Shown one piece after another: positions 13,530-33,944 of a DNA stretch of 64,000 nt. Every line of letters begins with the position of its first letter. The first letter of the stretch is position 1. Origin of the DNA: Pseudomonas mosselii. GTDB lineage: Bacteria; Pseudomonadota; Gammaproteobacteria; Pseudomonadales; Pseudomonadaceae. Location of the stretch: the NCBI RefSeq assembly GCF_019823065.1, contig NZ_CP081966.1, forward strand, positions 3,193,501 through 3,257,500, in the 5' to 3' direction. The position numbers and the translations under genes were made by a program. The notes below the pieces were generated by a model. That model was not told where the DNA came from. It saw only the letters and a program-made list of their open reading frames with translations, and ran no database searches.

Positions 13530-13566
13530 CGCGCCACGAAATGGCGCTTTGGTGTTTTGTGGCGCG
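13530..13566 (+). repeat. 37-bp inverted repeat, copy 1 of 4
   Basis: Left arm CGCGCCACGAAA, 13-base spacer, right arm TTTTGTGGCGCG. One position is a G-T pair. It sits three bases beyond the stop of the head morphogenesis gene, in noncoding DNA. Confidence 0.85.
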
Positions 13567-13568
13567 GG

Positions 13569-14645
13569 CTACAACAGCCGATCCCGCAGCTCATCGAGCG
13601 TCAGGAACTTGCCCTTGTCGTTGTAGAAGTCCTGCAGCTTCAGCTTGTCCTGGCGCAGCAGCTTCCCCCGCTCCGGGCCGAGGATTTCGTCCTGGCGGGC
13701 GGCAGGCTGGCGTGCAAGCCATTGAGCGTACGTGGTCTGCTGCGGCACCTGCCCGTCCATGCTTGCCCGGGTCGCGGCGTCGCTGATCCCCAGCGCTAGG
13801 GCGCTTTTGAGGATCGGCAGTTTGGTCGAGCGGCAGCAGAAGTGGATTCGGCCAGGGCCGGCGAGCCACGGCACCTTGTGCCCGATGGGTCGGTACGTGC
13901 CCAGCGTGTACGGCAGGCGGTCACGGATTCTGCAGGTCGTCGATGTCCGGTTATCCAGCGTGCTCAGCCACTCAACATGGCTGATGATGTCGCTGTTGGC
14001 CTCGAATGCCTTGTCGCTGGCCGTCTCTGCTGTGCTGGACACTGCCGACCGGACAACCGCCTCCACCTCCCGGCGAGACTTCTGCAGGATGCCATCAGCG
14101 TACTTCTCCGCCTTGGTACCCATGATCTGCCTGACGATCTCCGGCGTCGTGCGTCCTTCAAGCACGCCAGACCGCACGGCATCGCGGATTGACGCAGCAC
14201 GTTCAGCCTCAATGCCGGCCATCCACTCGCTGAGCAGCCGCCCCTGGAAGGGCCTTGCCAGCGCAATGGCGCGTACCTGACTGAACTGTGCCACGGCAAC
14301 CGGGAATCGCGCCTGCACAAGCTCAGGAACAGCCGCTGTAAGCGCAGTGGCCTGAAAGGCAATCTCGTAACTGGCCACGCCGTCGATGACGCCTGTGAGC
14401 GCCTGCTGAAGGCTAAAGAACGTCGATTGATTGATCCGCAGCACGGGCGCCAGAGCGGCATCGATCGCTGCAACGGACGCGCCGGCATCCAGGCTGTCGA
14501 TGGCAGCAATGAGCGCTGCCCGCAGCTCAGGGTCAGAACTGTTCAGGATCCTGATGATCGCCACGACCTGGCTGTTGCTCAGCCTGGAGAGATCAACTTC
14601 ATGGCCGATCAGCTCGTCCAGCAGCTTCTCGTTGGCGGTCTTCAT
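13569..14645 (-). CDS. Phage head morphogenesis (Mu F / SPP1 gp7-like) protein
   Basis: A 358-residue minor head protein. The C-terminal domain has the MuF pattern LSTLDNRTSTTCRIRDRLPY followed by WLAGPGRIHFCCRST. The N-terminal two thirds are helical. Such proteins bind the portal and are packaged with DNA in small numbers. The ATG at 14645 overlaps the portal stop (TGATG); a GTG three bases upstream is also possible. The gene stands between portal and scaffold as in related phages. Confidence 0.9.
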   Translation of the reverse strand: MKTANEKLLDELIGHEVDLSRLSNSQVVAIIRILNSSDPELRAALIAAIDSLDAGASVAAIDAALAPVLRINQSTFFSLQQALTGVIDGVASYEIAFQATALTAAVPELVQARFPVAVAQFSQVRAIALARPFQGRLLSEWMAGIEAERAASIRDAVRSGVLEGRTTPEIVRQIMGTKAEKYADGILQKSRREVEAVVRSAVSSTAETASDKAFEANSDIISHVEWLSTLDNRTSTTCRIRDRLPYTLGTYRPIGHKVPWLAGPGRIHFCCRSTKLPILKSALALGISDAATRASMDGQVPQQTTYAQWLARQPAARQDEILGPERGKLLRQDKLKLQDFYNDKGKFLTLDELRDRLL

Positions 14646-16051
14646 CACAGCGTACCGAGAGCCGGGCCCTGGGCCTCAATCTTCGCCAGCTCCTCTTCCC
14701 ATTCGTATTCGTCACTGATCACACCGCGCCGCTGCATCTCGGCGAACAGCGTCTCCTTGCTGATCATCCCGGCATTGGCCATGGAAACCAGCGTCGGCAG
14801 CGACACCTCAGGCATGTAGTCGACATCGAAGTTGCCACGCATCTCAACCGTACCGCCCTCGCCCAGGCTTCGATAATCGGCCATGAACTGAAGCAGCTGC
14901 GCCAGGCAGTCGGCGAAGTGGTGCGCCATACGTGCCAGCGGGGACAGTTCCTGCGCCGCCTCCTCCTCCGCCTGGGTGGCGGTCTTGGTTGCCGTTTTGT
15001 CTGGCGTCAGAAGCTTGGCCCCGGCCATGCGCATCTCGTTGATCAGGTCCTGCAGCGCGGTGCGACCAGCATCGACGGCCTGGCCGGTGTGCTCGACGTA
15101 TTTGAGGTCACCGTCCTTCGGCAGATCGGTAAGCTGGCCTGTGCCAACCTTGAACTCTGGCGGGATCACTTTCCCCTGGTTGTCGTACTGGGCCTGGATG
15201 CCGATGCGCACCAGGATCGGCACGCGGATGACGTGGAGGATGTTGTCCTGGTCGCTCTGGCTCTGCCAGTGCTTCACGTTCAGGTGTGCCAGCTCGATCA
15301 GCGGCGGCTTGGCAGTCATGAAGCCGGTACGGCCGGTGTAGAAGGTTACCCAAGGGATAGCGGTCAGGCTGTTGGTGCCCTCATCGTACTGCTCCCAGGT
15401 ACCTCCAGCTGTGGCCTGCTTGCCCCGTACGGCCTTGGCCGACCTGCGATAGGTTCGCCATGATCCAGGTTCGAGCACGCGAATCTGCTCGACGCATTTC
15501 GCGCCGAACTCGCCATCTTCCTCCTCGACCACCTCGATGTAGCGGACCATAGTCAGCACGCCGCCCTTGGAGCGCCAGCCCAGTACCTGCTCAGGCCTCA
15601 CCATCACCACATAGGGGCGCACGCCAGCGGCCTGCTCGTCTGCCTGGGTCTTCAGCTCACCCGCTGGCGGGTGATCGACGAAGGCATGGCACAGGCCATG
15701 GCTCAACCCCTCGGTGAAGAACCCGACCGACCAGGAGTTGAGGTCATTGCCGGCGTGGTCGATGTCCTTGGTCATCTCGACAATGGCCTCTGGCACATCG
15801 TCACCCACCTGCAGCGGCTCGGCGAACACGCGGGAGGTCATGTTGCCCACGGTCTCGGAGTACGCCGGCAGCAGGGTCGAGAGGCGCAGGCGCTCTTTGT
15901 AGGCCTCGTCGTCTTCGGCTGGGTACTGCGGCAGCAGGACCTTCCCCGCCGCCCGCATCGCCATGGTTCCGCCCATGAGTGGCGAGATCACGGCCCAGTA
16001 GGCGCGCATCGCGTCGACAGCGGGCAGCGTGATGCTCGGGTTATCGCTCAT
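14645..16051 (-). CDS. Portal protein (DUF4055)
   Basis: A 468-residue protein with the DUF4055 pattern: AVISPLMGGTMAMRAAGKVL and LPQYPAEDDEAYKERL near the N-terminus, and later ALQDLINEMRMAGAKLL. It forms the ring at the vertex through which DNA enters. It lies between large terminase and MuF protein. The GTG at 16057 overlaps the terminase stop and ATG 16051 follows six bases later; ATG is used because a weak GAGA site fits it. Confidence 0.9.
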   Translation of the reverse strand: MSDNPSITLPAVDAMRAYWAVISPLMGGTMAMRAAGKVLLPQYPAEDDEAYKERLRLSTLLPAYSETVGNMTSRVFAEPLQVGDDVPEAIVEMTKDIDHAGNDLNSWSVGFFTEGLSHGLCHAFVDHPPAGELKTQADEQAAGVRPYVVMVRPEQVLGWRSKGGVLTMVRYIEVVEEEDGEFGAKCVEQIRVLEPGSWRTYRRSAKAVRGKQATAGGTWEQYDEGTNSLTAIPWVTFYTGRTGFMTAKPPLIELAHLNVKHWQSQSDQDNILHVIRVPILVRIGIQAQYDNQGKVIPPEFKVGTGQLTDLPKDGDLKYVEHTGQAVDAGRTALQDLINEMRMAGAKLLTPDKTATKTATQAEEEAAQELSPLARMAHHFADCLAQLLQFMADYRSLGEGGTVEMRGNFDVDYMPEVSLPTLVSMANAGMISKETLFAEMQRRGVISDEYEWEEELAKIEAQGPALGTL

Positions 16052-16053
16052 GG

Positions 16054-17352
16054 TCACATTCTCAGGGATTGGGTCGTGAAGACCGGTCGTTCAATTGGGT
16101 AGTCGTGGTGGATGAAGTAGCCACCCGCGTCGTTCGCATGGTCCACGCCAGATTTCTTGTCTGGCTCACCGTTGGCAGCCCATACCTGCTGCTCCAGGCC
16201 GTCCGCATAGGTCGGGCAGCGCAGCGGGTTGATCAGGTAACGCCGCTCGCCATTCGCGTTGCAAAACATCGCGTTCATGGCGTTGATGCGGTCCTTCACC
16301 GGAGGGTTGGCGTCTGGGGCGATAACGCTGAACCCGGCCTGGCGCAGGATGGCGATGTCCGTCTCGCTGGCGTTCACCGACTTGCGGGAGCCGCCCGAGG
16401 CGTCGGGGTAGATCCGGATCTCGCAGGTCTTCTCGTAGTCCCTGCCGTTGTGCCGCCAGTAGCGCTCCTTGATGCGCCGGATCATGTCCGGGGTATCGAA
16501 GCCGTCGATCAGCTCATCCACGGCCCTGGGCTTTCCGTCAGGCCTTTTGACATGGACGATCGCCGCCATCTTGCCGACGTTGAAGTCCATGCCGATGAAT
16601 AGGGGCTCTCCAGGCTCTACGGTGTCGAAGCAGGAATTCAGCTTCCGGTCGTAGGCATGGTAGATCGACCCGGAGTTCAGGTTGACGAACTGGCCGTTTA
16701 GGTAGGCCAGGATCAGCTGGGCTGGATACGACTCCATCAGCGACGGGATGTAGTCGGGCGGCAGGTTCAGCTCGTTGTCGAACGTGCTGGCCTGCACCAG
16801 GCCGTACATGCCCTGCATCGCTGGCTTCTCGCGCAGCTGCTTCACGAACTGCTGGTAGACGAACTTGAACCCCTCGGGGGTCGTGGTCACGTCTACGCCG
16901 TTCTTCAGTCCGGGCACGTTGTAACGCATCCGGGCAATAATCTTGCGCCAGGCGTGCTCAGCCTTCAGCGCGGGCAAAACGTCGAGTTCATCGACCAGGG
17001 CGTGCCCGATCTTGAAACCCACGATGGTCTGTGGCTTCTCCATCGAGCGGCAGATGGTCGTGCTGCGGTACTGACCGCCGCTGTAGAACTCGACCTCCTT
17101 GTCGCTCTCCTTCGTCTTGACCTTTAGGCCCCAGTCGAAGGCGACCTCCTCGATGGTCGGGAAGAAGATGTCGCGGATCTGCGGGTAGGTCGGTGCGAAG
17201 TAGCCGGAGTTGATCCTTGGCCATTCCCATACATGCTTACAGATGCCTGCGCATCCCACCCAGGTCTTGCCAGAGCCGAACCCTGCCACGAAGCCGCGGA
17301 ACTTGTGCTCCATCTGGAGGAAGCGCGCCTGCGGGACGTTAAGCGTCGGCAT
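16054..17352 (-). CDS. Terminase large subunit
   Basis: A 432-residue packaging ATPase/nuclease. Walker A GFGSGKT is near residue 26 and Walker B IGHALVDELD near 115-124. The RNase H-like nuclease acidic residues appear in FIGMDFNVGK, IYPDASGG and DHANDAGGYF. It powers DNA translocation and cuts concatemers. AGGAAG precedes ATG 17352, which lies inside the end of the small-subunit gene (14-base overlap). Confidence 0.95.
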   Translation of the reverse strand: MPTLNVPQARFLQMEHKFRGFVAGFGSGKTWVGCAGICKHVWEWPRINSGYFAPTYPQIRDIFFPTIEEVAFDWGLKVKTKESDKEVEFYSGGQYRSTTICRSMEKPQTIVGFKIGHALVDELDVLPALKAEHAWRKIIARMRYNVPGLKNGVDVTTTPEGFKFVYQQFVKQLREKPAMQGMYGLVQASTFDNELNLPPDYIPSLMESYPAQLILAYLNGQFVNLNSGSIYHAYDRKLNSCFDTVEPGEPLFIGMDFNVGKMAAIVHVKRPDGKPRAVDELIDGFDTPDMIRRIKERYWRHNGRDYEKTCEIRIYPDASGGSRKSVNASETDIAILRQAGFSVIAPDANPPVKDRINAMNAMFCNANGERRYLINPLRCPTYADGLEQQVWAANGEPDKKSGVDHANDAGGYFIHHDYPIERPVFTTQSLRM

Positions 17353-17800
17353 CTGGCTTCCTCGCGTTCACTACCTCGACCCGGATGCTGGTCGGCACCT
17401 GGTTGTCCTGCGGTACGTCTGTCTTGGTCTGCCGATTCACGTAGACATCGCCGACCTCTTTGGCCGCCTGCTCCAGCAACTGGGCAGTCAAGGCCATGTT
17501 CTTCATCGACTCGGCTTTCTCGGCCATCCTGCCCAGCGCGCGGAGGCGAAAGGCACGGTTGGCGATGGGTATCTCTGCTGTCTCCTCACGGAAACGCTTG
17601 CGGGTGTCTTCAAACATGATTACCCAACGCTTGGCCAAGCCCTTGCTACAGGCCTTGGTTGGGTCGTGACTTTCCACCTGCTGGCGGGTCACCACCTGGC
17701 CGAATTCACTCTTGACGGCCTCCACTACCTGGGTTGGTGTGTCGAAGCACGCAAGGGCCTGAACGATGAAGCCCTTCACCTCATTTGTCAGGGCTGCCAT
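17339..17800 (-). CDS. Terminase small subunit (DUF2280)
   Basis: A 153-residue protein with the DUF2280 pattern MAALTNEVKGFIVQALACFD, then VKSEFGQVVTRQQVESHDPT. An N-terminal helix-turn-helix would recognise the packaging site and a helical core would oligomerise. It is directly upstream of and overlapping the large subunit. The ribosome site is poor. Confidence 0.85.
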   Translation of the reverse strand: MAALTNEVKGFIVQALACFDTPTQVVEAVKSEFGQVVTRQQVESHDPTKACSKGLAKRWVIMFEDTRKRFREETAEIPIANRAFRLRALGRMAEKAESMKNMALTAQLLEQAAKEVGDVYVNRQTKTDVPQDNQVPTSIRVEVVNARKPDADA

Positions 17801-17831
17801 ATGGTGTCATCCGTCTAGGGCCTGTCTGGAA

Positions 17832-18440
17832 TCAGGCCGACCTCAGTAGACAGGTTCCGCAGGCCCTCGAAATGTTGATCTTGGCCACCTCAGGCGGCCG
17901 GCTTGCAGCGTCTATCAGCTGCTGTACGTCGTGGCTTGCACCGTAGCGCCTCACCACTCCGACGAACTCTTCGACGTCATGGCCACGCATCTCGAGCTTG
18001 GGCATGCCGTCATCGCCGAACGCTGGGGAGCCGTACTTATCGAGCTTGTGCCCGATGTGATACAGCTCGTGTTCGACCAGCGAGCAGAACTCGGCCTCGC
18101 TGCACTGGGCGCAGTAGTCACCCGCCAGCGTGATGAGGAACTCAGGCTCCCCTCCAAACCAAGCGCGCATCTGCTGCTCCTGGCGAGCCTTCTGCCATCC
18201 CCCGGCACGGATCATCAGTTGCTCGGCCTGGCCAAGAACGCTGCGACCCTTCTTGCTGAACGAGGAGGAAGCCCAAAGCACGCCGATGTTGGCGTCGATG
18301 AGGTGAGCATGCTCTTCGTTGTGGATGCTGCCAGTAGCGGAGAGGATCTCCGCCTGTATCCACTCCCACACTTCTGGAGCCGGCGCGAGGATCAGGAATG
18401 GCGATTCAAGCAGCTCAGCCGGCGGCATCGGTCTGCTCAT
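17832..18440 (-). CDS. Putative phage metallopeptidase
   Basis: A 202-residue protein with a zinc-peptidase motif HELYHIGHKLDKYG (HExxH type) at about residues 126-139 and an acidic stretch VEEFVGVVRRYG further on. This matches the putative phage metallopeptidase family; its substrate is unknown. GGGAG stands before ATG 18440. It is placed between the membrane/lysis block and terminase. It is not an obvious endolysin. Confidence 0.7.
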   Translation of the reverse strand: MSRPMPPAELLESPFLILAPAPEVWEWIQAEILSATGSIHNEEHAHLIDANIGVLWASSSFSKKGRSVLGQAEQLMIRAGGWQKARQEQQMRAWFGGEPEFLITLAGDYCAQCSEAEFCSLVEHELYHIGHKLDKYGSPAFGDDGMPKLEMRGHDVEEFVGVVRRYGASHDVQQLIDAASRPPEVAKINISRACGTCLLRSA

Positions 18441-18449
18441 GCTCACTCC

Positions 18450-18486
18450 CGCGCCACGAAAAGGCGCACCTCTGTTTTGTGGCGCG
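18450..18486 (+). repeat. 37-bp inverted repeat, copy 2 of 4
   Basis: The same arms as copy 1, CGCGCCACGAAA and TTTTGTGGCGCG, with an unrelated 13-base spacer. It fills the gap between the stop of the holin-like gene (18488) and the ribosome site of the metallopeptidase gene. Confidence 0.85.
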
Positions 18487-18487
18487 C

Positions 18488-18790
18488 TTACCGCCGCCGC
18501 GACTGATCGAACAACCTGGCCACGTTGCCCTTCGAGCGCAGCGCCAGGATGAACAGGATCCCGAAGATCAGCGTGCTGGGCACGGATGTGACCGGCCACT
18601 GCCCATACAGCAGGATCGCGCCGATGATGCTCAGCCACTCCTGGCCAAACAGGGAGGCCAGGCAGAAGGCGCACAGGCTGGGCAAGAACTTGTAGCTCGA
18701 GCCGCCCCGCCGGTACATGAACGCGATGACGAAGCAGATCCCGCCGCAGAACCCGGCATGAGCCAGGGTGATGGTTTGGTCTAGGGTCAT
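18488..18790 (-). CDS. Holin-like membrane protein
   Basis: A 100-residue protein with three hydrophobic segments (about 8-26, 33-60, 65-85) and a basic tail (SKGNVARLFDQSRRR). That is the form of a class I holin. It overlaps the upstream membrane protein gene by four bases. Holins perforate the inner membrane at lysis. No lysozyme or Rz gene follows directly, which is unusual. Confidence 0.6.
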   Translation of the reverse strand: MTLDQTITLAHAGFCGGICFVIAFMYRRGGSSYKFLPSLCAFCLASLFGQEWLSIIGAILLYGQWPVTSVPSTLIFGILFILALRSKGNVARLFDQSRRR

Positions 18791-19176: not shown

Positions 19177-19186
19177 GTTCAATCCC

Positions 19187-19450: not shown

Positions 19451-19469
19451 GCGCTTTCCTACGGGCAAC

Positions 19470-20255: not shown

Positions 20256-20374
20256 TGGCCGTTCTCCTTCTTCCGGCGGTTCGCGATGAGCTGGCCGCGC
20301 GTGACGCACCAGGTGGAGCTGATGAACATGGCCAGCAGGAGCAGGCCGACGATTTGTTCGATGGTCCAGGTCAT
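20252..20374 (-). CDS. 40-residue single-pass membrane protein
   Basis: A short frame, MTWTIEQIVGLLLLAMFISS, then a basic tail RRKKENGQ. Its ATG overlaps the NinG stop (ATGA) and its stop overlaps the ATG of the next gene in the same way. Perfect coupling on both sides supports translation. One membrane helix spans about residues 8-25. Function unknown. Confidence 0.6.
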   Translation of the reverse strand: MTWTIEQIVGLLLLAMFISSTWCVTRGQLIANRRKKENGQ

Positions 20375-20973
20375 GCTGCTGCCCTCTTGAGGTCACGGAG
20401 TTTCTGGCGGTACAGGGCCTTGATGGCCTGCAGGTCTTCGATGGCCAGGCGCTGGGGCTTATGAGGCCCTTCGAGCCAGTCGACTCGGTCGGCGCCGATG
20501 CGCTTCACCAACCGGATGCGGTACTCGACCGCGTTACCCGACAGGTTCCGGTTGCACTTCACGCACTGGCGGTGGACGTTGAGCGGCTCGAAGCGCAGCT
20601 CCGGGCAGGCGCCCACGGACCGGTAATGGCCGGCGTCCCAGCGGCTGCCGGTGATGAGGTTGTGGTCGCTTGGCAGCGAATCGCAGCTGATGCACGGCAG
20701 CCCGGCGTCGCGCTCACGGATGTAGGCGTTGAACACCTTCTGCGCTTCGGCTAGATGCTCGCGCCGATCTTTCAGCTTCTCCCGGCGCTCCTTGAGGTCT
20801 TCCCGGGCCTGCCGGGTGATGGCCTTGGCCGCGATCTTCTGCAGCTTGGGATCCTTGGCCATGGCCTTGGCGCAGGCGATGCTGCATACCTTCTGCGTGG
20901 TCATGGTCGGTTTGAAGTGCTTGCCGCAGCCTGGCGCCTTGCACTTCTTCGGCTTCACTTCTGCTGTGCGCAT
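20371..20973 (-). CDS. ninG: NinG recombination protein
   Basis: A 200-residue protein with the NinG pattern: two zinc-type pairs, KCKAPGCGKHF and VCSIACAKAMA. A charged coiled region follows, then CISCDSLPSDHNLITGSRWD, AGHYRSVGACPELRFEPLNV and HRQCVKCNRNLSGN. In lambda, NinG (Rap) is a branched-DNA endonuclease that works in recombination. The gene lies between ninB and the late regulator as in the lambda nin region. Confidence 0.9.
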   Translation of the reverse strand: MRTAEVKPKKCKAPGCGKHFKPTMTTQKVCSIACAKAMAKDPKLQKIAAKAITRQAREDLKERREKLKDRREHLAEAQKVFNAYIRERDAGLPCISCDSLPSDHNLITGSRWDAGHYRSVGACPELRFEPLNVHRQCVKCNRNLSGNAVEYRIRLVKRIGADRVDWLEGPHKPQRLAIEDLQAIKALYRQKLRDLKRAAA

Positions 20974-21305
20974 GGCTTGTCCTCCGTGGCGGGAAACACC
21001 GTCCAGTTGCCGATCCCTCTCCAGGCGCCAGCCCCACCCATGCAGGAGGTGGTGTTGCGCGGAGCACCGAGCTCGGTGATGAAGAATTCAAACCAGACCT
21101 GCGGGGCATACACCCACGCCGGAAGTCGGCGGGCGCGGAAGCCATGGGCCCGACCGCATGCCCAGCAGAACCGAGTGAACGACGTGGCCGCAGCGCAGGC
21201 ATACAGAACCCGCCCGAGTACTCGACCACCCTTGAGCGCGAGCCATACGTTGAACAACAGGCCGCCCCCCATAAGCCAGAGCGCATAGAGATCAAGCGTG
21301 CTCAT
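20955..21305 (-). CDS. Hypothetical nin-region protein
   Basis: A 116-residue protein. A hydrophobic N-terminus (MSTLDLYALWLMGGGLLFNV) is followed by a Cys/Arg-rich middle (RFCWACGRAHGFRARRLP) and TVFPATEDKP at the end. ATG 21305 overlaps the NinB-like stop, and its 3' end runs 19 bases into ninG. Coupling supports the gene; no family recognised. Confidence 0.55.
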   Translation of the reverse strand: MSTLDLYALWLMGGGLLFNVWLALKGGRVLGRVLYACAAATSFTRFCWACGRAHGFRARRLPAWVYAPQVWFEFFITELGAPRNTTSCMGGAGAWRGIGNWTVFPATEDKPCAQQK

Positions 21306-21772
21306 GCCGCTTCCTCGCTCAGCAGATCACTGAAAACCACGCCCTTGGCCGAGAAGTCCGCCACCACCCGTTCGGTGTAGGCGATGCCTTGGGCGCGATT
21401 GAATAGACTGGTCACCGGCATGCCGTCCGGCCCGAACAGCTTGCAGTCGCCCATCATGTCCAGCTTCTCCTCGTAGGACAGGTGACGCATGACCCGGTAC
21501 CAGGCCGCCTGAAAGTCCTGATCTTCGTTCAGCAGGATCTGCACGCCGTGGTGCAGCTTGCAGTACTTGCGGGCCTCGGATGCCTCGCCGATCTGGGTCA
21601 TCTCGGCAATGCGCTTATAGAGCGCGAACCACAGAGCGTTCTGGTCAAGGGTGCGGTCTTTGCCAGGTCGCAAGCTGACCACGACGAACTTCTTCTCGCG
21701 GAACATGCCAGTTAGCATGGTCACTGCCTCGGACAGCTTGGCTTGACTGTTGACGCTGATGCGCTCAGACAC
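21302..21772 (-). CDS. NinB-like recombination protein
   Basis: A 156-residue protein with the NinB hallmark GKDRTLDQNALWFALYKRIA and a C-terminal YTERVVADFSAKGVVFSDLL. NinB (Orf) binds single-stranded DNA and helps Red recombination. The GTG at 21772 follows GGAGGTGGCC and overlaps the previous gene by eight bases. Identity with lambda NinB is limited outside the LDQN element. Confidence 0.6.
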   Translation of the reverse strand: MSERISVNSQAKLSEAVTMLTGMFREKKFVVVSLRPGKDRTLDQNALWFALYKRIAEMTQIGEASEARKYCKLHHGVQILLNEDQDFQAAWYRVMRHLSYEEKLDMMGDCKLFGPDGMPVTSLFNRAQGIAYTERVVADFSAKGVVFSDLLSEEAA

Positions 21773-22744: not shown

Positions 22745-23496
22745 AGGTCCCCCAGGTCATCAGCCCAGCTGGTGTCGTTGAAGTCGGGGCCGCTGGCCGG
22801 GCGGCGGGATGCGAACGGGGCGGCGCCTGCCGGCTGCGGCAGTTCGTCTTCCCAGCGCTTGCCGTTCAGCCAGGTTGATGCGTGTGGGATGAACTGGCCG
22901 CCGTCCTTGGTCCAGTCGGTCGAAACGGTCCAGGCAGCCAGGGAGGCGGCCATCAGGTCGAACAGGTCAGCGGTGACCTTGAGCTTCGCCCAGGCCTTCT
23001 TGGCGTCGGCCTTGCTCACCTTGCGCGGGTAGAGCTTCCAGAAGCGTTCGAAGTCGACCAACTCGCCTTCGCGAGAGTCAGTCCTTACTCCCTTCAGTTC
23101 TTGCTTACCTTCAATACTTACTAGTGTCGGATTTGCCGGATACGGCTGAGCCGGAAGCGGTTCAACCGTATACGGCAAAGCCGGAAGCGGTGTTTCCGAT
23201 ACGACGTAGTGGGTTTCGCCCAGCAAACCAGACTCACCACGGTCCTGACGGCGCTGGACGTAGCCGGCGGTGATCAGCTCTTGCAACAGGCCGTACACGC
23301 CGTCACGACCGGTCGGCTTAGAGGACTTGGCGGTCTCGTTGCGCAGGTGGGTGACGGATACGGCCCAGTGATCAGGCTTGCCGAGCAGGAAGACCAACAG
23401 GCCACGGGCAGCCCAGCTCAGGCGCCCGTCCTCGCTGATCGACTTGTTGAGCATATAGAAGTTGGCCTCGGGACGAGGCGCACGGATGATGCTCAT
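22741..23496 (-). CDS. O: Replication initiator O-like protein
   Basis: A 251-residue protein. The N-terminal winged-helix region (GRLSWAARGLLVFLLGKPDH, then GRDGVYGLLQELITAGYVQR) would bind the origin. The central linker has repeated PLPAxPY units produced by DNA repeats. The C-terminal half (DFERFWKLYPRKVSKADAKK; FIPHASTWLNGKRWEDEL) is the part common in phage O-like proteins that meets the loader. GAGGTG precedes ATG 23496, which overlaps the HNH gene stop. Confidence 0.85.
   Translation of the reverse strand: MSIIRAPRPEANFYMLNKSISEDGRLSWAARGLLVFLLGKPDHWAVSVTHLRNETAKSSKPTGRDGVYGLLQELITAGYVQRRQDRGESGLLGETHYVVSETPLPALPYTVEPLPAQPYPANPTLVSIEGKQELKGVRTDSREGELVDFERFWKLYPRKVSKADAKKAWAKLKVTADLFDLMAASLAAWTVSTDWTKDGGQFIPHASTWLNGKRWEDELPQPAGAAPFASRRPASGPDFNDTSWADDLGDL
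23140..23210 (-). other. Iteron-like repeat inside gene O (candidate origin)
   Basis: A 21-base unit of form ATACGGCNNAGCCGGAAGCGG occurs at 23140-23160 and 23170-23190, exactly 30 bases apart. A third, truncated ATACG start lies at 23199. In lambda the O-binding iterons also lie inside O. There are only two full copies, so this is a candidate. Confidence 0.5.
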
Positions 23497-23846
23497 GCCA
23501 TCACCTCGAAGTGGAATCTGTGCTCCTTGTCGAAGCCAAGCACCGGGAATGCACCGGCATCCTTCAGGTACATCAGCTGGGAATGGCCGAAAATCGCCAC
23601 GCCAGTGACTTTCTTGGCGGTGAGGTACATGCGGTAGTGCTCGAGCGTCTTCGTGCCCTTGGAAGCGTTGCATGAGTGACAGGACGGCATGAGGTTGCCG
23701 AGATCGTTCGAGCCTCCCAATGACTTAGGGAATACGTGGTCGATGTGGAAATCTTCTTCGCACAGGTTGTCGCCGCAGTAAGCGCAGTGCCCGTTGGTTT
23801 TGGCGTACACCTTGACGCGCTTGAATGGAGAGATGGATTTGCTCAT
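23493..23846 (-). CDS. HNH endonuclease
   Basis: A 117-residue protein with zinc pairs CAYCG and CHSCN framing HIDHVFPKSLGGSNDLGNLM, the HNH catalytic core (about residues 20-63). The C-terminal 50 residues (VTGVAIFGHSQLMYLKDAGA) are not part of the usual domain. It may be a homing-type or a functional phage nuclease. It lies upstream of O, overlapping it by four bases. Confidence 0.85.
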   Translation of the reverse strand: MSKSISPFKRVKVYAKTNGHCAYCGDNLCEEDFHIDHVFPKSLGGSNDLGNLMPSCHSCNASKGTKTLEHYRMYLTAKKVTGVAIFGHSQLMYLKDAGAFPVLGFDKEHRFHFEVMA

Positions 23847-24520
23847 TGGCCGCGCTCCTTGGCCATGAACTCGTCCACGACTGCATCCGCCATGCCGCTG
23901 AACAAAGGCATCTTCCCCTCATTCCAGATAGCCAGCGGCGACGTGGTGCCAATGGGGTTGCGAATGAAGCGGTACCGCTCGGCATCCTTGCGCAGCTCCT
24001 GCGCCAGGCCCTCAATAGCGCTGCCGTCGTCGTCAATGTCAGCGCCAAGGGCCTCGCCGATAGCGCCGATGTCACAGGCAGCGGCCAGCAGCATCCGCTT
24101 GTGCGACTCCAGGTCAGCACTGAGAGCGCTCTCGCGCGCTTGGGATTGCTCCAGCTTGTGGTTCAGAGCCCAGACCTCGCCCTGCATCTGGGTTTTCTCA
24201 GACAGCAACTGCTCAAGACGGGTGTGCGCCACCTGCAAGGCAGCAGACGATCGCCCGTCGCCATCGCAGGTAGTGCAGCCACCCAGCCGCTCGAACGACT
24301 CAGGGCCTTGATAGGAGACGTGGATCTCCTCGCCGTAACCATTGCAGGCTGGGCAGTAGTAGCCGAGCGCTGCCTTCGCGGCATCCCAGCCATTCCAGGC
24401 CGAGCCAACGTCAGGAATGGCATCCCAAACGATATGGCCAGCGTCGGATATGGCGTCATCCAACCACTTGTTGAAGTCGGGGTCTTGCCACTGCTGGCGA
24501 TCCTGCTCACGGCTTCTCAT
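23843..24520 (-). CDS. Phage protein with CxxC pairs and coiled coil
   Basis: A 225-residue protein. The N-terminal part has YYCPACNGYGEE and GCTTCDGDG, a DnaJ-like zinc element at about 54-90. A coiled coil (LQVAHTRLEQLLSEKTQMQG) follows. The C-terminal piece LAQELRKDAERYRFIRNP is a frequent tail of phage early proteins. Overlaps both neighbours by four bases. Role unknown. Confidence 0.65.
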   Translation of the reverse strand: MRSREQDRQQWQDPDFNKWLDDAISDAGHIVWDAIPDVGSAWNGWDAAKAALGYYCPACNGYGEEIHVSYQGPESFERLGGCTTCDGDGRSSAALQVAHTRLEQLLSEKTQMQGEVWALNHKLEQSQARESALSADLESHKRMLLAAACDIGAIGEALGADIDDDGSAIEGLAQELRKDAERYRFIRNPIGTTSPLAIWNEGKMPLFSGMADAVVDEFMAKERGQ

Positions 24521-25308
24521 GCTGCACCTCGCACTGCCTTGTCGTGGGTGTGCAGGCCGTCCCAGTTCTTCTTCATGGGCAGCTCGCCGGCCAGGTACAG
24601 CTCGTACAGGCGCACGGCGCCCTTGCGCAGGAGGATCGGTGTGTAGCTGATGAACGCCTCTTTCCCGTGCGGGGTGATCTCCTGCTGGTGTTCGGTCATG
24701 TACTTGTCGCGGGCGTAGGCGGCGACGCGGTAGCGGGTGCCCGACTTGCTCTCGTTGTAGAGCCAGTTGCGACCCTCAAGGAAGTGACCGACCTGCATCA
24801 CGTTGACCCCATTGAGGCCCTTGCAGAACTGGACGTGGCTCATGCCTTCCTTGAACAGGTTCTCCAGGTGGCCGATCTTCTTGGCCTGGGCCTCGACCTG
24901 GACAGTGAGCAGAACGCGGGCTTTCTCCGACTCCAAGGCCATCTGGAGGATTTCCAGCTTGCTGAGGTCGGCGGGAGCGGACGGGGCTGCTTTTGCTTCC
25001 AGCTCCTGCCAGCGGTCGATAACCCTGGCTCGGTGCTCGTCGCTGTAACCGGCCACCACCAGGTGGGTGTCGCGCTCAATCAGGTCGTAGACCTCGATCG
25101 GTCGACCGCCCGTGGCCTCGCGACGGCTTTTACGACTTGATCGCAAAAGGTTTTTTGAGAAAAGTCGTTCGATGGTGGCCACCACGTCGTTGTGGCGCGC
25201 CTCTACCAAGTCAGCGATTTCACGCGATGACATCGTGCGCGCCACGAAATCGTGGTTCGCGTTTTGTGGCGCGAGGGCCACGGTATTGATTTGGCTACCA
25301 AGGTGCAT
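24517..25308 (-). CDS. Rha/KilAC-type phage regulatory protein
   Basis: A 263-residue protein. The Rha domain at about 28-95 (TMSSREIADLVEARHNDVVA; GGRPIEVYDLIERDTHLVVA) is followed by a helical linker and a KilAC domain (VMQVGHFLEGRNWLYNESKS; YRVAAYARDKYMTEHQQEIT). Such proteins act as antirepressors or regulators early in infection. GAGG stands nine bases before ATG 25308. Copy 3 of the 37-bp inverted repeat is part of its coding sequence (about residues 12-24). Confidence 0.8.
   Translation of the reverse strand: MHLGSQINTVALAPQNANHDFVARTMSSREIADLVEARHNDVVATIERLFSKNLLRSSRKSRREATGGRPIEVYDLIERDTHLVVAGYSDEHRARVIDRWQELEAKAAPSAPADLSKLEILQMALESEKARVLLTVQVEAQAKKIGHLENLFKEGMSHVQFCKGLNGVNVMQVGHFLEGRNWLYNESKSGTRYRVAAYARDKYMTEHQQEITPHGKEAFISYTPILLRKGAVRLYELYLAGELPMKKNWDGLHTHDKAVRGAA
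25238..25273 (+). repeat. Inverted repeat, copy 3 of 4 (36 bp, inside Rha gene)
   Basis: Arms CGCGCCACGAAA and TTTTGTGGCGCG are identical to copies 1 and 2, but the spacer is 12 bases. It lies within the N-terminal coding part of the Rha/KilAC gene, encoding APQNANHDFVAR on the minus strand. Confidence 0.85.
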
Positions 25309-27134: not shown

Positions 27135-27144
27135 TGCTCGCGAA

Positions 27145-28140: not shown

Positions 28141-28151
28141 AGGATCACGCC

Positions 28152-28690: not shown

Positions 28691-28938
28691 GCGGAATGAG
28701 CATTTCCGGCCAGATCATGATTCAAGAACCTTCGAGCAGCGGGTTCTCGGCCAATGTCTACCCGACGCGCCTTGATGCGGCCATTCAGTTGCTGCGCGTG
28801 ATGATTCGCCGCGCCCCTGACGAGCAGCAGGCCATGGACCAAATCGAAAAGGCCGTAGCTGAGCTGATCAGCGAGGAGCGGCATGACTTGGACATGGATA
28901 TGGCAACCGAGCGCCGGCGCCGTGGAGAAGAGCCATGA
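28687..28938 (+). CDS. Small early phage protein
   Basis: An 83-residue protein: FSANVYPTRLDAAIQLLRVM, then a charged helical C-terminus (RHDLDMDMATERRRRGEEP). Coupled by ATGA on both sides. No family recognised. Confidence 0.55.
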   Translation: MSGMSISGQIMIQEPSSSGFSANVYPTRLDAAIQLLRVMIRRAPDEQQAMDQIEKAVAELISEERHDLDMDMATERRRRGEEP

Positions 28939-29186
28939 GCGGCTGGCAGGCGATCGACTCAGCGCCGCGTGACGGCACCGAGATCATCCTGCGCAAAGGG
29001 GATCGAGTCACTGCCGGCGCTTGGATTGAGTGGAGCAAGTCCGAAGCCTCATTCAACAGTCGCGGCGACTATCTCGGCCAAGACGAATACGACTCTGGCG
29101 CGCACTGGGCGTCTTGGGATGGCGGCTTCTGTGAAGACGACGAGCCAACCCACTGGCAGCCCCTCCCTTCCCCACCCACCGAGTAA
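28935..29186 (+). CDS. DUF551-like phage protein
   Basis: An 83-residue protein with the DUF551 frame: GWQAIDSAPRDGTEIILRKG at the N-terminus and THWQPLPSPP at the C-terminus. The family is common in phage early regions; its role is not known. ATG overlaps the preceding stop. Confidence 0.75.
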   Translation: MSGWQAIDSAPRDGTEIILRKGDRVTAGAWIEWSKSEASFNSRGDYLGQDEYDSGAHWASWDGGFCEDDEPTHWQPLPSPPTE

Positions 29187-29206
29187 CCAACCACCTGGAG
29201 GCGACC

Positions 29207-29464
29207 ATGCACCCCAGCATTCAAGCTCGTCGCGACATTCTTACCACTCTTCGCCTGCGCTCTGTGATTGCCACGGCGGAAATGTACAGCCTGATCGGCC
29301 TGGCAATGCCGGTGATCATGTTCCGCTTCCAGGTGAGGCCTGCGGGCCGTGACTTCTTCCATGTGGTGGATGCCCGTGACGGCAAAGTCCGTGGATTCCG
29401 CCGCAACCACAACGAGGCCTGCGCCCTAGCGCGCAGCCTGGAGATGGAGAAAAGCCATGACTGA
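29207..29464 (+). CDS. Small early phage protein
   Basis: An 85-residue protein starting MHPSIQARRDILTTLRLRSV with FRFQVRPAGRDFFHVVDARD in the middle. GGAGGCGACC stands before ATG 29207. The 3' end overlaps the next gene by eight bases. Function unknown. Confidence 0.55.
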   Translation: MHPSIQARRDILTTLRLRSVIATAEMYSLIGLAMPVIMFRFQVRPAGRDFFHVVDARDGKVRGFRRNHNEACALARSLEMEKSHD

Positions 29465-29903
29465 CTTCCTCGAAACTGTCGACGGATCCGACTGGCTCTA
29501 CGAATCGATCAACTCACTGATCTGTGGCGAGAACGTCACGGCGCCGCGCGCCCACGGCAAGGCTGTATCGCTGGTCACGCCGCAATCGCTGTACGAGGCC
29601 CTGGCCGAGCACCTAGGCGCGCAAGAACACATCGCTCCGCTACTGACCGACAACCGCGAGTACCCGATCGAGAAGATGATCTGCGAAATCATCGCCGATG
29701 GCCGCGGCGTACACCGAAAGGCATACGACCTGGCAGTCGAAGCTGTAGGTCAATCCAAGAATGGACGCCCAACCGCTCTTCACGATGTTGCAGAAGCGCT
29801 TATCCGGCCCTGGGCCCAAGAGTACGCAAGAGCTCGAGCCGAAGAGGTTGCAGCTGATCTTGCTGCCGAGCGCGCCGAACACTTCAAAGCTGACGCAGCA
29901 TGA
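29457..29903 (+). CDS. Early phage protein, function unknown
   Basis: A 148-residue protein, acidic N-terminus (MTDFLETVDGSDWLYESINS), middle NREYPIEKMICEIIADGRGV and a helical C-terminus (RARAEEVAADLAAERAEHFK). Its start lies within the end of the previous gene. No domain recognised. Confidence 0.55.
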   Translation: MTDFLETVDGSDWLYESINSLICGENVTAPRAHGKAVSLVTPQSLYEALAEHLGAQEHIAPLLTDNREYPIEKMICEIIADGRGVHRKAYDLAVEAVGQSKNGRPTALHDVAEALIRPWAQEYARARAEEVAADLAAERAEHFKADAA

Positions 29904-29989
29904 GCTACTGGCGCGGCTCCTTCTCCATGCTCTTCGCCTGCACCTTCTTCATGCTCGCCAGCGCACTGGCCGGCAGCATCACTTCCTGA
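29900..29989 (+). CDS. 29-residue membrane peptide
   Basis: MSYWRGSFSMLFACTFFMLA followed by a short SALAGSITS end. It is a single hydrophobic helix, translated from an ATG overlapping the stop of the upstream gene. Coupling and the membrane helix support it; the length leaves doubt. Confidence 0.4.
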   Translation: MSYWRGSFSMLFACTFFMLASALAGSITS

Positions 29990-30165
29990 ACAACGCACCC
30001 GAGCACGGCGGGCCCCTAGGGGATAACCGTACCCCTTCGGGAGCGTAAGCGGCGAGAGCGCGCAACCATCCACCGCAGCCAGGGCCTGGAGCGTAACTCC
30101 GTGCCTGGGTGACCTGGCATTTCCCTATCCCAACTGACGGCGCCGGCCTGGCGCGAGGTTTTCTA

Positions 30166-31290
30166 ATGTCCGCAGAACAGAAACTGATCAAGATCGAAGA
30201 GATCAGCGAAGCGAACGCCCCGGCCATCTACGTGGCCGGCGGCCTGCAGCAATTCATCGACCTGGTGAAGGGTGAGGTACTGGGCGAAGTGCCTGACCTG
30301 AAAACCCGCAAGGGGCGCGAGCGCATCGCCAGCCTTGCCGCCAAAGTCAGCAAGTCGAAGACCGCTGTAGAGAAGCCGGGCCGCGACTACCTGCGCCGGC
30401 TCAAGGAAATGCCGAAGGTCGTTGAGGCCGAGCTGCGCGAGTTCGTGACAAAAATGGACGCGCTACGGGACGAGACGCGCCGGCCACTCACCGAGTGGGA
30501 AGCCGCCGAGGATGCGCGCATCGATCGACACAATGACGCCATCAACCGCATGAAAGACCTGGCCACCGATCTGGGCGCGCTGGATGCAGAGCAGCTGCAA
30601 GGCCGCATCACCGAGCTCACCGCGTTCGTCCTGGGCGATGCCTGGGAGGAATTCGAAGCTGAGGCCGCCCGCGCCAAAGAAGCGTCGATGAATGCCTTGC
30701 AGGCTGCCCAGGCCGCCCGGCAGAAGTACGACGCCGAGCAGGTCGAGCTGGCCCGCCTGCGCCGCGAGGCAGAGGAGCGCGCCGAGCAAGACCGCATTCG
30801 GGCAGCACAGGAAGCCGCCGTCGAGCTGGAGCGCCAGCGAGTAGCCCAGGAGCAGCAGGCCGAACGTGACGCGGCCGCCCGCCGCGAGCAGGAGCTGATC
30901 GACCAGGCTGCAGCACAAGAGCGCGAAGCCGAGAACCAGCGCCTGCAGCTCAAGTTGCAGGCCGAGCAAGCGGAACGCGCCCGCGCTCAGGCCGAAGTCG
31001 ACCGCGTTGCCACCGAGCAGCGGATGGAGCAGGAGCGCCAAGACGCCGCACGCCGGCAAGAGGAGGCAGCCGAGCAGGCCCGCCAGGAAGAACGCCGCCG
31101 GGCAGATGCAGCTGCCGCCGAGATCGTGCGCCAGCAGGAAGCCCGCGAAGCCGACAAGGCACACCGCCGCAGCATCAACCGCGCCGCCCTGGACGCCTTC
31201 CTCGCCGGCGGCATGACCGAGGAATGCGCCAAGCAGGCAATCACCCTGATCGCCGAGCGCAAGATCCCAAGCATCACCATCCAGTACTGA
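30166..31290 (+). CDS. Long coiled-coil phage protein
   Basis: A 374-residue protein. The N-terminal 130 residues are globular (APAIYVAGGLQQFIDLVKGE; VEKPGRDYLRRLKEMPKVVE). Residues 160-330 are an almost continuous Glu/Gln/Ala/Arg coiled coil, and the end is a small conserved cap (AFLAGGMTEECAKQAITLIA). GAGG precedes ATG 30166. It stands directly upstream of the ERF recombinase and may be a recombination accessory factor; this is inferred from place. Confidence 0.65.
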   Translation: MSAEQKLIKIEEISEANAPAIYVAGGLQQFIDLVKGEVLGEVPDLKTRKGRERIASLAAKVSKSKTAVEKPGRDYLRRLKEMPKVVEAELREFVTKMDALRDETRRPLTEWEAAEDARIDRHNDAINRMKDLATDLGALDAEQLQGRITELTAFVLGDAWEEFEAEAARAKEASMNALQAAQAARQKYDAEQVELARLRREAEERAEQDRIRAAQEAAVELERQRVAQEQQAERDAAARREQELIDQAAAQEREAENQRLQLKLQAEQAERARAQAEVDRVATEQRMEQERQDAARRQEEAAEQARQEERRRADAAAAEIVRQQEAREADKAHRRSINRAALDAFLAGGMTEECAKQAITLIAERKIPSITIQY

Positions 31291-31297
31291 GGTCACC

Positions 31298-32074
31298 ATG
31301 AGCCAAGTAGCCAGGGTCGATACCCAATCCCAGTCGCCGGCCATCGCCGCCGAGTCGGTGACCATCCTGCAGATCATCCAGCAGGTGGCCATGTCCCCAA
31401 CCGCTGACATCGACAAGATGGAGCGCTTGATGGTGATGCACCAGAACATCCAGGCTCTGCAGGCCAAGCAGCAGTTCGACGAGGCGTTGGCCTCGATGCA
31501 GGAAGAGCTGCCCGTCATCGGCGAGCGCGGCGGAATCAAGGACAAGAACGGCCGCATCCAGAGCACCTACGCACTCTGGGAAGACATCAACGAGATGATC
31601 AAACCGGTTCTGGCCCGCCACGGCTTCGCCCTCTCCTTCCGCACGCCGCGCAATGAACGCGGCATCGAGGTTGAAGGCGTCCTGAGCCATCGTGCCGGGC
31701 ATCGCGAGACCACTTCTCTGCTCCTGCCGGCAGACACCAGCGGCAGCAAAAACGGCGTCCAGGCTGTGGCCTCGAGTGTGAGCTATGGCAAACGCTACAC
31801 CGCCGGCGCCCTGCTCAACTTCACCACCACTGGCGAGGATGACGACGGCAACGGCGCCGTAGTGACGCCGCGGGTCACCTCAGTGCAGGCCACCCAGTTG
31901 GCCATGCTGCTGGAGCGCTGCAGCGACAAGGCCAAAAAGGCATTCGCCAGCATCCACGGCACGCCGTCGGCGGTAGAGAAAGCCGCGTTCGACCAAGTGC
32001 TGGGCATGCTCAGCAAGTCCGTCAAGCAGCATGAATCGGCACCACGGGAGGCTCAAGATGCAGATCATCACTGA
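31298..32074 (+). CDS. erf: ERF-family single-strand annealing protein
   Basis: A 258-residue protein with the ERF core: FDEALASMQEELPVIGERGG, YALWEDINEMIKPVLARHGF, then GVQAVASSVSYGKRYTAGAL and FTTTGEDDDG. ERF proteins anneal complementary strands in phage recombination and genome circularisation. It is paired with an exonuclease gene that overlaps its 3' end by 17 bases. Confidence 0.9.
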   Translation: MSQVARVDTQSQSPAIAAESVTILQIIQQVAMSPTADIDKMERLMVMHQNIQALQAKQQFDEALASMQEELPVIGERGGIKDKNGRIQSTYALWEDINEMIKPVLARHGFALSFRTPRNERGIEVEGVLSHRAGHRETTSLLLPADTSGSKNGVQAVASSVSYGKRYTAGALLNFTTTGEDDDGNGAVVTPRVTSVQATQLAMLLERCSDKAKKAFASIHGTPSAVEKAAFDQVLGMLSKSVKQHESAPREAQDADHH

Positions 32075-32675
32075 CGTCGAACAGGGTACGCCGGAATGGC
32101 TCGCCCTTCGCCTGGGGATCATCACCTGCTCCGAATTGGACTGCCTGCTGGTCGCCGGCAAGGGTGAAGCGGGCTTCGGAGTGGCCGCATTCACCTACAT
32201 GGACCAGCTGATCGGCGAGCGGATCACCGAAGAGGCCGCCGAGATTCCATTCAAGACCGTGGCTACGATTCGCGGCCACGAACTGGAGGGCGTCGCCCGA
32301 GGCCTGTACGAGGACCGCGAAAGCATCAAAACCCGATCGGTCGGCATCATCCTCAACCACGGCATCGGCTACTCCCCTGACGCGCTGGTAGGCGAGCAGG
32401 GGCTTACCGAAATCAAGACCAAGCTCCCCAAGTTCCAGGTCAGCGTCATCCTGAACGGTGAAGTGCCCAAGGAGCACGTCGCTCAGTGCCAGGGCGGCCT
32501 GTGGGTATCCGAGCGCGAGTGGCTGGACTTCATCAGCTACTGGCCCGGCATGCCCCTCTTCGTCAAGCGCGTGTACCGCGACGAAGTAATGATCCGCAAA
32601 CTCACCGAACGGGTGAAAACATTCTACGAAATCCTCGACGAGCGCATGAACAAGGTGCTCGGCGCGGCCGCATAA
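32058..32675 (+). CDS. YqaJ/lambda-exonuclease family nuclease
   Basis: A 205-residue protein. QGTPEWLALRLGIITCSEL is the family N-terminal motif; GIGYSPDALVGEQGLTEIKT holds the D-(x)n-E-x-K catalytic residues, and HVAQCQGGLWVSEREWLDFI follows. It digests 5' ends to supply substrate for ERF. GGGAGG stands before ATG 32058. ERF-YqaJ-SSB form a complete recombination cassette. Confidence 0.9.
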   Translation: MQIITDVEQGTPEWLALRLGIITCSELDCLLVAGKGEAGFGVAAFTYMDQLIGERITEEAAEIPFKTVATIRGHELEGVARGLYEDRESIKTRSVGIILNHGIGYSPDALVGEQGLTEIKTKLPKFQVSVILNGEVPKEHVAQCQGGLWVSEREWLDFISYWPGMPLFVKRVYRDEVMIRKLTERVKTFYEILDERMNKVLGAAA

Positions 32676-32689
32676 TCCAAGGAATCACG

Positions 32690-33178
32690 ATGCCTACTCT
32701 TACCGATATCGGCCGTATTGGCCGCGACGCTGAACTGCGCTACACCCCAAACGGCGATCCCGTCTGCAACTTGGCTATCGCATGCGATTACGGCCGAAAA
32801 GGGCAGGACGGCAAGCGACCTACCCAGTGGGTGGATGCCACGCTGTGGGGCAAGCAGGCCGAATCCATGGCCCAGTACCTGGTCAAAGGTCAGCAGGTGC
32901 ATTTCACCATCGATGACGCGCATGTTGAGGTTTTCACCAAGTCTGACCAGACACAGGGCGTGAAGCTCACCGGCCGGGTGATCATCATCAAGTTCGCCGG
33001 CAGCCCGCCGCAGCAATCGCAGAGCGGCCAGCAGGCCCAGCAGCCGCGCCAGCAACAGCGCGCTCAGCAGCGCCCGCCCGCCCAGCATCAGAACCAACAG
33101 GGCAGCAACGGCCCGGACTACGAAAGCTTCGACGACGACATCCCATTCGCCCCGCTCCCCCATCTCGCAGGTACGTAG
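32690..33178 (+). CDS. ssb: Single-stranded DNA-binding protein
   Basis: A 162-residue SSB. The OB fold is at about 1-105 (GRIGRDAELRYTPNGDPVCN; ATLWGKQAESMAQYLVKGQQ). A Gln/Pro-rich linker and an acidic FDDDIPFAPL follow; the tip is followed by eight extra residues (PHLAGT end), unlike the strict host SSB end. AAGGAAT precedes ATG 32690. Confidence 0.9.
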   Translation: MPTLTDIGRIGRDAELRYTPNGDPVCNLAIACDYGRKGQDGKRPTQWVDATLWGKQAESMAQYLVKGQQVHFTIDDAHVEVFTKSDQTQGVKLTGRVIIIKFAGSPPQQSQSGQQAQQPRQQQRAQQRPPAQHQNQQGSNGPDYESFDDDIPFAPLPHLAGT

Positions 33179-33180
33179 CC

Positions 33181-33381
33181 ATGTTCCCGCGCAAACCCAA
33201 GCAGATACACCCGCTGCCCTACTCCCAGGGCCGTACCGCCCGGGCCGCCAATCGATGCCGCCTGGCCCAGCCCTACCCCGAAATGACGATCGACAGCGCC
33301 TGGCGGCTTGCCGGCTGGCATGACTGCGATATGGAGCAATCCGATGAACCGAAAAATCCTGCGCTCGCTGCAGCTGCATAG
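33181..33381 (+). CDS. RMF/CrpP-like small protein
   Basis: A 66-residue basic protein with the pattern YSQGRTARAANRCRLAQPYP followed by SAWRLAGWHD. This matches the ribosome modulation factor family (G..AR..G....CPY......W..GW), which includes mobile-element CrpP proteins. RMF dimerises ribosomes in stationary phase; for phage or plasmid relatives the role is disputed. It starts three bases after the ssb stop. The call rests on motif spacing only. Confidence 0.6.
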   Translation: MFPRKPKQIHPLPYSQGRTARAANRCRLAQPYPEMTIDSAWRLAGWHDCDMEQSDEPKNPALAAAA

Positions 33382-33529
33382 GCGCCGCGATCAGTTCAAC
33401 TTGCCGCCCAGCGGATTGAAGGAGGTGCTGCATGGCGATGACCCAGCAGCAGCGCGACGAGAAGCGCCGCGCCAAGGCCGAGCGCCTGCAGGAAGAAGAC
33501 CTGCGCTTGAAGGTTCGACCAGGGACTAA
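33343..33529 (+). CDS. Possible small overlapping gene
   Basis: A 61-residue basic frame (MNRKILRSLQLHRRRDQFNL, then PPSGLKEVLHG). A GGAG site is seven bases upstream of the ATG. It overlaps the RMF-like gene by 39 bases and the following gene by about 98 bases in another frame, where its sequence becomes low-complexity, so only the first half looks protein-like. Uncertain. Confidence 0.3.
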
Positions 33530-33944
33530 ACAGGCCCTGCTGGAACTGATGGAGTGGGCCGGGATAGAGGAACAGGGCGAGGCGATGACGCTGATGATTC
33601 ATCACATCGAAGCGCTCGGGCATCACGCATTGTTCAGAATCGCGCGCCACGAAATCGAAGGTAACCGATCCGTGGCGCGTACTGAGCCGCTGCGGCTATC
33701 AGCCAGGAAGCGAACAGGACAGCACCTGCGAGCGATATGCGGCTGGGCTGACGCTACCTACAGCCAGATGATCGAGGCGCTGATTCACGGCATCCGCGCA
33801 CTAGGCAGGCTGCACGCGGCGAAGTTTCTCACCCCGCCGCGTCACAAGATCAGCATCTCACCGCGCCTGGCCCTGGCTTTCGACCGGAAGAGCATGCTGA
33901 TGATTCAGCAGGATCCGGGGGATGAAGTCATCGCCCCGGCCTGA
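33432..33944 (+). CDS. Tandem ribbon-helix-helix-like protein
   Basis: A 170-residue protein made of two similar halves. The first is LRLKVRPGTKQALLELMEWA .. MTLMIHHIEALG .. ARHEIEGNRSVAR; the second is LRLSARKRTGQHLRAICGWA .. MIEALIHGIRALG .. PRHKISISPRLAL. Each resembles a small phage DNA-binding unit. GGAGG precedes ATG 33432. Copy 4 of the 37-bp inverted repeat encodes the end of the first half. The duplication suggests an internal dimer. Confidence 0.6.
   Translation: MAMTQQQRDEKRRAKAERLQEEDLRLKVRPGTKQALLELMEWAGIEEQGEAMTLMIHHIEALGHHALFRIARHEIEGNRSVARTEPLRLSARKRTGQHLRAICGWADATYSQMIEALIHGIRALGRLHAAKFLTPPRHKISISPRLALAFDRKSMLMIQQDPGDEVIAPA
33644..33680 (+). repeat. 37-bp inverted repeat, copy 4 of 4 (inside coding sequence)
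   Basis: Left arm CGCGCCACGAAA is identical to the others; the right arm ATCCGTGGCGCG keeps the outer nine bases as a perfect complement. The spacer is 13 bases. It lies between the two repeated domains of the surrounding gene. Confidence 0.75.

Follow-up and report, generated by a model that had tools for sequence, protein, structure and literature searches.

A palindromic 36/37-bp element as a candidate module-exchange joint in temperate Pseudomonas phages

Introduction

Why should one inverted repeat of 36 or 37 bp stand four times in a single prophage, twice between genes and twice inside them? The question is raised by a 64,000-nucleotide stretch of the Pseudomonas mosselii chromosome (assembly GCF_019823065.1, contig NZ_CP081966.1, positions 3,193,501 to 3,257,500; hereafter the window), in which an earlier inspection of the letters (the sequence-only reading) had noticed the repeat and had taken it for a binding site, an RNA hairpin or a small mobile element rather than a product of coding constraint. 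We followed the element through Pseudomonas genomes and phages. Judged from these comparisons, it would be a palindrome that marks module boundaries in temperate Pseudomonas phages and is used as a joint at which modules are exchanged, a reading to which we assign a probability of about 0.56. The element looks like a built-in joint because unrelated neighbours are found swapped across it.

Results

Modules switch across the element

Comparison between phages shows unrelated gene and domain families joined across the element in many combinations. The flanks of 215 copies fell into 66 left and 77 right clusters that occurred in 110 combinations, with more than one left partner for 21 right clusters and more than one right partner for 18 left clusters. 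Among 63 intergenic copies, 11 upstream and 15 downstream protein families were joined in 27 combinations, which form one connected network.

Homology between phages also switches at the element more often than at nearby gene junctions. In a break test on 41 stretches with 91 element sites, located with relaxed outer octamers, homology was broken at the element in 824 of 987 comparisons (83.5%), against 6227 of 10624 (58.6%) at control gene junctions on the same strand. The control fraction was 40.7% (1174/2882) at 0.6-1.5 kb from the element, 0.639 at 1.5-3 kb and 0.675 beyond 3 kb. Breaks occurred at 36-bp elements in 159/211 comparisons and at 37-bp elements in 665/776; 34 of 40 records were positive, with p 0.0001 in a per-site test and p 0.0005, the floor of the test, in a within-record permutation. 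At least one element was found with relaxed octamers in all 41 stretches, most of which had been selected for having one. Both flanks were present in the partner yet apart in 85/987 comparisons at elements and 156/10624 at controls. The partner carried an element at its own switch point in 148/372 cases where only the left flank was shared, 163/367 where only the right flank was shared and 35/85 where both lay apart; the corresponding values at controls were 29/2853, 38/3218 and 0/156. One short sequence is thus found at the joint, with flanking modules that vary between phages, the copy in the phrog_5439 gene excepted, and three of the four classes of copy are at switching borders.

Positions of the copies

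The element is located mostly at borders of genes or protein domains, with one class inside a phrog_5439 gene. It recurs in this early gene, at the start of antirepressor genes, and where the lysis genes and the head-morphogenesis gene end. Among 150 entries that measure 37 bp and have complete flanks, a sense stop codon lay at most 5 nt upstream in 72; in the 50 distinct ones of these, the element started 0, 1, 2 or 3 nt past the stop in 6, 10, 33 and 1 cases. Other contexts also occur, with opposite-strand genes or no nearby stop. Representative copies have in front of them holins of phrog_217, 2508 and 126 or a weakly Rz-like gene, and behind them phrog_513, an HslV-family peptidase, a portal gene and others; the head-module copy lies between head-morphogenesis and scaffold-like genes. 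In antirepressors, a leader and the element are fused in frame to Rha, Bro-N or KilA-N domains (of eight such fusions scanned, one lacked any Pfam match and another had an Rha match under the curated cut-off), and the Rha-type proteins of phages F10 and vB_Pae_U2 begin with another short start, in which no hairpin was found. Genes were called for the context and break tests by a simple codon-score script.

In the window, copy 1 (13530..13566, minus strand, 37 bp; sense form CGCGCCACAAAA-CACCAAAGCGCCA-TTTCGTGGCGCG) lies 2 nt past the stop of a head morphogenesis gene (phrog_241, 13569..14645, minus strand) and is followed by a terminator-like stem, recognised by eye, and then by a phrog_784 gene similar to head scaffolding phrog_206 (12671..13435, minus strand). 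Copy 2 (18450..18486, minus strand, 37 bp) lies 1 nt past the stop of a holin gene (phrog_217, 18488..18790, minus strand), with GGAG and the start region of a 198-aa phrog_513 gene (17832..18428, minus strand) directly after it. Copy 3 (25238..25273, minus strand, 36 bp) stands in frame in an antirepressor gene (PF09669 Rha, 24517..25308, minus strand), between about 11 leader codons and an Rha domain that begins at residue 26. Copy 4 (33643..33679, plus strand, 37 bp) lies at about residues 71-83 inside a 170-aa phrog_5439 gene (33432..33944, plus strand) and retains the hairpin fold; an early copy inside a phrog_5439 gene was also seen in locus L008, there at codon 74. The phrog_5439 family is matched in two stretches of the window's protein, as though a shorter relative had been duplicated in tandem; the element falls close to where the first of these stretches ends.

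The coordinates that the sequence-only reading gave for copies 1-3 proved exact. Its fourth copy, placed at 33644-33680, is real and begins one base earlier, and its right arm differs at two positions. The same orientation, claimed there for all copies, holds for the plus-strand letters; relative to transcription copy 4 is reversed, because the genes that contain or adjoin copies 1-3 are on the minus strand and the gene around copy 4 is on the plus strand.

A fixed geometry and the possibility of a protein-binding site

In the prophage the element has the form CGCGCCACGAAA-N12/13-TTTTGTGGCGCG, in three exact copies and one diverged copy (copy 4, with the right arm ATCCGTGGCGCG). The spaced arm pattern was absent from 100 shuffled windows. 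In a mismatch scan that scored 24 arm positions and accepted R/Y at one position per arm, the four sites had 0, 0, 0 and 2 mismatches and the next-best matches in the window 7; 40 resampled windows gave, per window, 2.5 matches with 7 mismatches, 0.2 with 6 and none with fewer. Given the gap between 2 and 7 mismatches and the lack of any match in shuffles, chance does not produce the copies.

The outer parts are GC-rich octamers, CGCGCCAC and GTGGCGCG, which stand 20-21 bp apart, and the inner flanks are AT-rich. Of 382 copies with distinct flanks, 379 measured 36 or 37 bp in total, with 30-44 permitted and most loci fetched with patterns permitting spacers of 6-30 or 8-20. In the same set, its loci mostly fetched by arm patterns, inner positions 2-4 are nearly always A or T. 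Coding copies in antirepressor genes are 36 bp long and in frame, and intergenic family-1 copies are mostly of 37 bp. The arms do recur, as had been claimed; the spacer is not as free as was supposed, since its sense-strand positions 8-12 lean to GCGCC (50 distinct intergenic copies). Exact arm patterns had served to fetch most of the loci behind the arm frequencies, those of the flank-cluster and 382-copy sets included; the phrog_513 upstream loci, the 50 phage records (see below) and the break-test set are free of this bias.

Such rigidity would suit a regulatory DNA site, to whose two octamers a dimeric phage or host protein might bind and so govern transcription or the organisation of the DNA at several genomic locations, in the manner of dispersed operators, stoperators or centromere sites; module switching would then be a mere side effect of a repeated sequence. 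We regard this as possible, if tentative. It fits the multiple copies per phage, the A/T at the inner positions, the half-sites mostly of one type (73 AA and 7 TT, besides 6 mixed and 5 other, over the 91 break-test copies, found by outer octamers alone) and the phrog_5439 copy, which stands at no visible switching border. It is weakened by the lack of a candidate protein, the prophage having no ParB_N or serine-resolvase match, and by position, considered by itself, since many copies lie 0-3 nt past stop codons or within reading frames.

Paired change of the arms and folding

In the antirepressor set, made up of the best 80 of 300 relatives, all 80 loci contain a 36-mer in which 12 or more of the 14 conserved outer positions agree (46 distinct). 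The set is biased for the main family, because the element itself encodes one of the six peptides used for the search (PQNANHDF). In this set the arms change pairwise, so that GTTT/AAAC and CGCGACAC/GTGTCGCG families stand beside the main one. Pair 5 is C-G in 39 copies and A-T in 7, and pairs 11 and 12 are A-T in 28, T-A in 17 and unpaired in one; inner pairs were formed at a fraction of 0.80, against 0.49 (sd 0.05) in shuffles. All four window copies fold better than the shuffle mean on both strands (z -1.8 to -5.7). Two side features mark the main family (copies 1-3). One position stays unpaired, with A-C on the sense strand and G-T on the opposite one, and the spacer contains, in sense orientation, GCGCC or CCACGA, which can pair with the right arm.

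Covariation cannot decide between DNA and RNA, because pairing is expected of a hairpin and equally of a site for a dimeric protein. A hairpin in the mRNA, acting on processing, stability or translation of the adjoining genes, would agree with these covarying pairs and folds and with positions just past stop codons and ahead of ribosome-binding sites. We nevertheless consider it improbable. The mRNA strand of copies 1-3 folds worse than the opposite strand (-14.1, -18.8 and -16.2 against -23.4, -21.1 and -24.3 kcal/mol) and keeps the A-C mismatch, the mixed-arm copies have inner arms that cannot pair, and a loop would need no exact 12 or 13 nt. The weaker fold and the mixed-arm copies favour DNA. 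A known structured RNA family was rejected as an identity: Rfam gave no match at the elements up to E = 1, its one sub-threshold match lying elsewhere.

Distribution in genomes and phages

Restriction to the prophage, as first claimed, holds within the window. The same chromosome has one further exact copy (C1:3684811-3684846), in another Rha-type antirepressor gene with a leader, and five copies in all with exact outer octamers; this second antirepressor gene (L004) probably belongs to a second prophage.

A scan of 84,980 species genomes returned 67 stretches, 64 of them in Pseudomonas (47 of 37 bp and 17 of 36 bp); the three others, of 33, 35 and 42 bp, resemble chance. The exact family-1 form occurred in 14 of 298 Pseudomonas genomes and the family-2 form CGCGCCACGTTT-N-AAACGTGGCGCG in 30, with no genome common to both, which is uninformative as only 1.4 were expected. 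Scans of viral contigs for the family-1 or family-2 form gave at least 120 stretches each. Among 244 genomes of the order, the outer octamers matched 20 and a reversed control pattern 17; in the 18 matching genomes from other genera, lengths were scattered or the inner sequence was GC-rich, as expected by chance, and AT-rich copies of 36/37 bp occurred only in the two matching genomes of the same genus. Of 50 phage records, chosen via the phrog_513 gene and picked mainly for length, 38 carry 1-5 copies when the outer 8-mers must be exact and nothing else is required, and every copy among those listed is of 36/37 bp. YMC11/02/R656 and Medea1 are published phages with a copy, under which no feature is annotated. 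Of 80 loci, chosen as the best among 147 relatives, 10 had an element with at most 2 mismatches within 130 nt upstream of the phrog_513 gene; the remainder comprised one match with 7 mismatches and 69 scoring at least 9, some having a copy further upstream. In the collections searched, the element is restricted to Pseudomonas and its phages. The pattern is thus more frequent there than chance allows (64 of the 67 stretches; 38 of the 50 records), and the same arms at 36/37 bp in coding and non-coding places of many Pseudomonas phages bear out the sequence-only reading that this is a real element and not a coding constraint.

One sequence in many unrelated contexts, sometimes in frame within genes, could also be a tiny mobile element, palindromic or resembling a miniature inverted-repeat transposable element (MITE), whose insertions into phages are tolerated in linkers and at the ends of genes. 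This option of the sequence-only reading gained no support, and we think it very improbable. Precise empty and filled alleles were sought and none was clean among the fetched loci, so that identity as a transposable palindromic element or MITE was rejected. Of 1440 flank comparisons, in loci fetched for carrying the element, 1425 had it and the other 15 had one outer base changed; where it is missing in loci chosen by their flanks, the upstream sequence differs. Records hold only 1-5 copies, at recurring places.

Other genes of the prophage

The prophage encodes an Erf-like annealing protein (31298-32074), an exonuclease (32058-32675) and SSB (32690-33178) on the plus strand, NinG (20371-20973) and NinB/Orf (21302-21772) on the minus strand, and a phage integrase. 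The phrog_513 gene bears the PHROG label transposase, and in phage YMC11/02/R656 its counterpart is followed by a DUF2280 and by the gene for the terminase large subunit; a TerS label for it is wrong both by PHROG and by the R656 annotation. Genes at 34819-35544 and 38925-39698 match phrog_887 (queuine tRNA-ribosyltransferase) and a DNA methyltransferase family and perhaps act in DNA or RNA modification. The replication region holds a small HNH/endonuclease VII-like gene (23493-23846). Another conserved sequence, approximately CCAATACCGGCAACNNGCCAYNATTTCAAG, lies upstream of the phrog_513 gene or another and precedes more than one kind of gene (loci L544, L552-L555, L560, L568, L575, L578-L582); it was rejected as a second multi-copy border element, being present at most once per record and in 13 of 41 records.

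Discussion

The sequence-only reading overlooked that the element is often the junction between swapped modules. We propose that a short sequence common to phages at equivalent borders would allow homologous recombination there, and that modules could be exchanged in this way, probably by the Erf annealing protein and the exonuclease with NinB and NinG as helpers. Lysis, head or DNA-binding modules might so be traded without breakage of the reading frame, and the element would be the joint, at the DNA level, through which antirepressors come to mix Rha, Bro-N and KilA-N domains. Fixed length and paired change of the arms point to a putative factor that recognises the site, probably a dimeric DNA-binding factor and less likely an RNA partner, which would keep the element intact.

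Several observations weigh against an exchange joint. The exchange is inferred from comparison, and a simple homology linker needs neither fixed length nor covarying arms, so that a second function must be assumed. Control junctions beyond 1.5 kb break more than near ones, so borders vary widely by place, and border genes without an element directly upstream likewise show varied upstream sequences. An element in the partner is partly expected if the element is linked to one flank. Copies were already known when the 40 fetched stretches were chosen, and 3 of the 91 element sites are doubtful relaxed matches. As far as seen, the phrog_5439 copy sits at no switching border: 22 of 23 copies of its right-flank cluster have one common left flank, and in L008 the family match spans the element. 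The spacer is linked equally to left and right flanks, with no crossover signal inside (p 0.57); a crossover point within it, suggested by a smaller set, was rejected when a larger set showed no polarity. Crossovers may lie in either arm or outside the element.

A stronger form of the exchange-joint reading, in which the palindrome at lysis, head and antirepressor borders would be a dedicated exchange site recognised by a predicted specific trans-acting protein, seems rather doubtful to us. If it were true, any two such phages could trade parts, even DNA-binding domains in frame, and the site would be the phage counterpart of the integron cassette system. Integron attC is a hairpin-like site right behind the stop codon of an exchangeable gene, with the core RYYYAAC / GTTRRRY. 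Many intergenic copies of the element lie 0-3 nt past a stop, and its coding copies do not follow one. The element has 36/37 bp, and its main-family arms show no attC core when inspected by eye.

Other known repeats are similar in part. The phage-plasmid N15 has dispersed centromere sites, which are also inverted repeats spread over the phage genome, whereas this prophage has a phage integrase and no ParB_N match; for a ParB-type protein, three PF02195 matches were found in the genome and none in the window. Rickettsia palindromic elements too lie in frame inside protein genes, but the present element is much shorter, phage-borne and mostly at gene or domain borders, with no clean insertion alleles found. 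The REP/REPIN sequences of Pseudomonas have many copies per chromosome, outside genes, and this identity was rejected, as the genome has only its five copies with exact outer octamers and two of the window's four lie inside genes.

The closest likeness is to phage boundary sequences. Boundary (linker) sequences for phage modules have been proposed (Susskind and Botstein 1978; Clark et al. 2001, both as cited in PMC3029335), and PMC3029335 states that they are not identifiable at most borders. Here as there, a short conserved sequence stands at the joint of exchanged modules, for which action by homologous recombination was proposed (PMC3029335). What differs here is that one palindrome of fixed length and with covarying arms marks several borders per genome, is shared by many phages and also stands in frame within genes. 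A search of titles and abstracts in an open-access library found no paper describing this sequence, which suggests that, within that library, an old idea has met a new sequence. With one defined 37-bp sequence marking several borders in a large phage group, the boundary hypothesis becomes testable by deletion.

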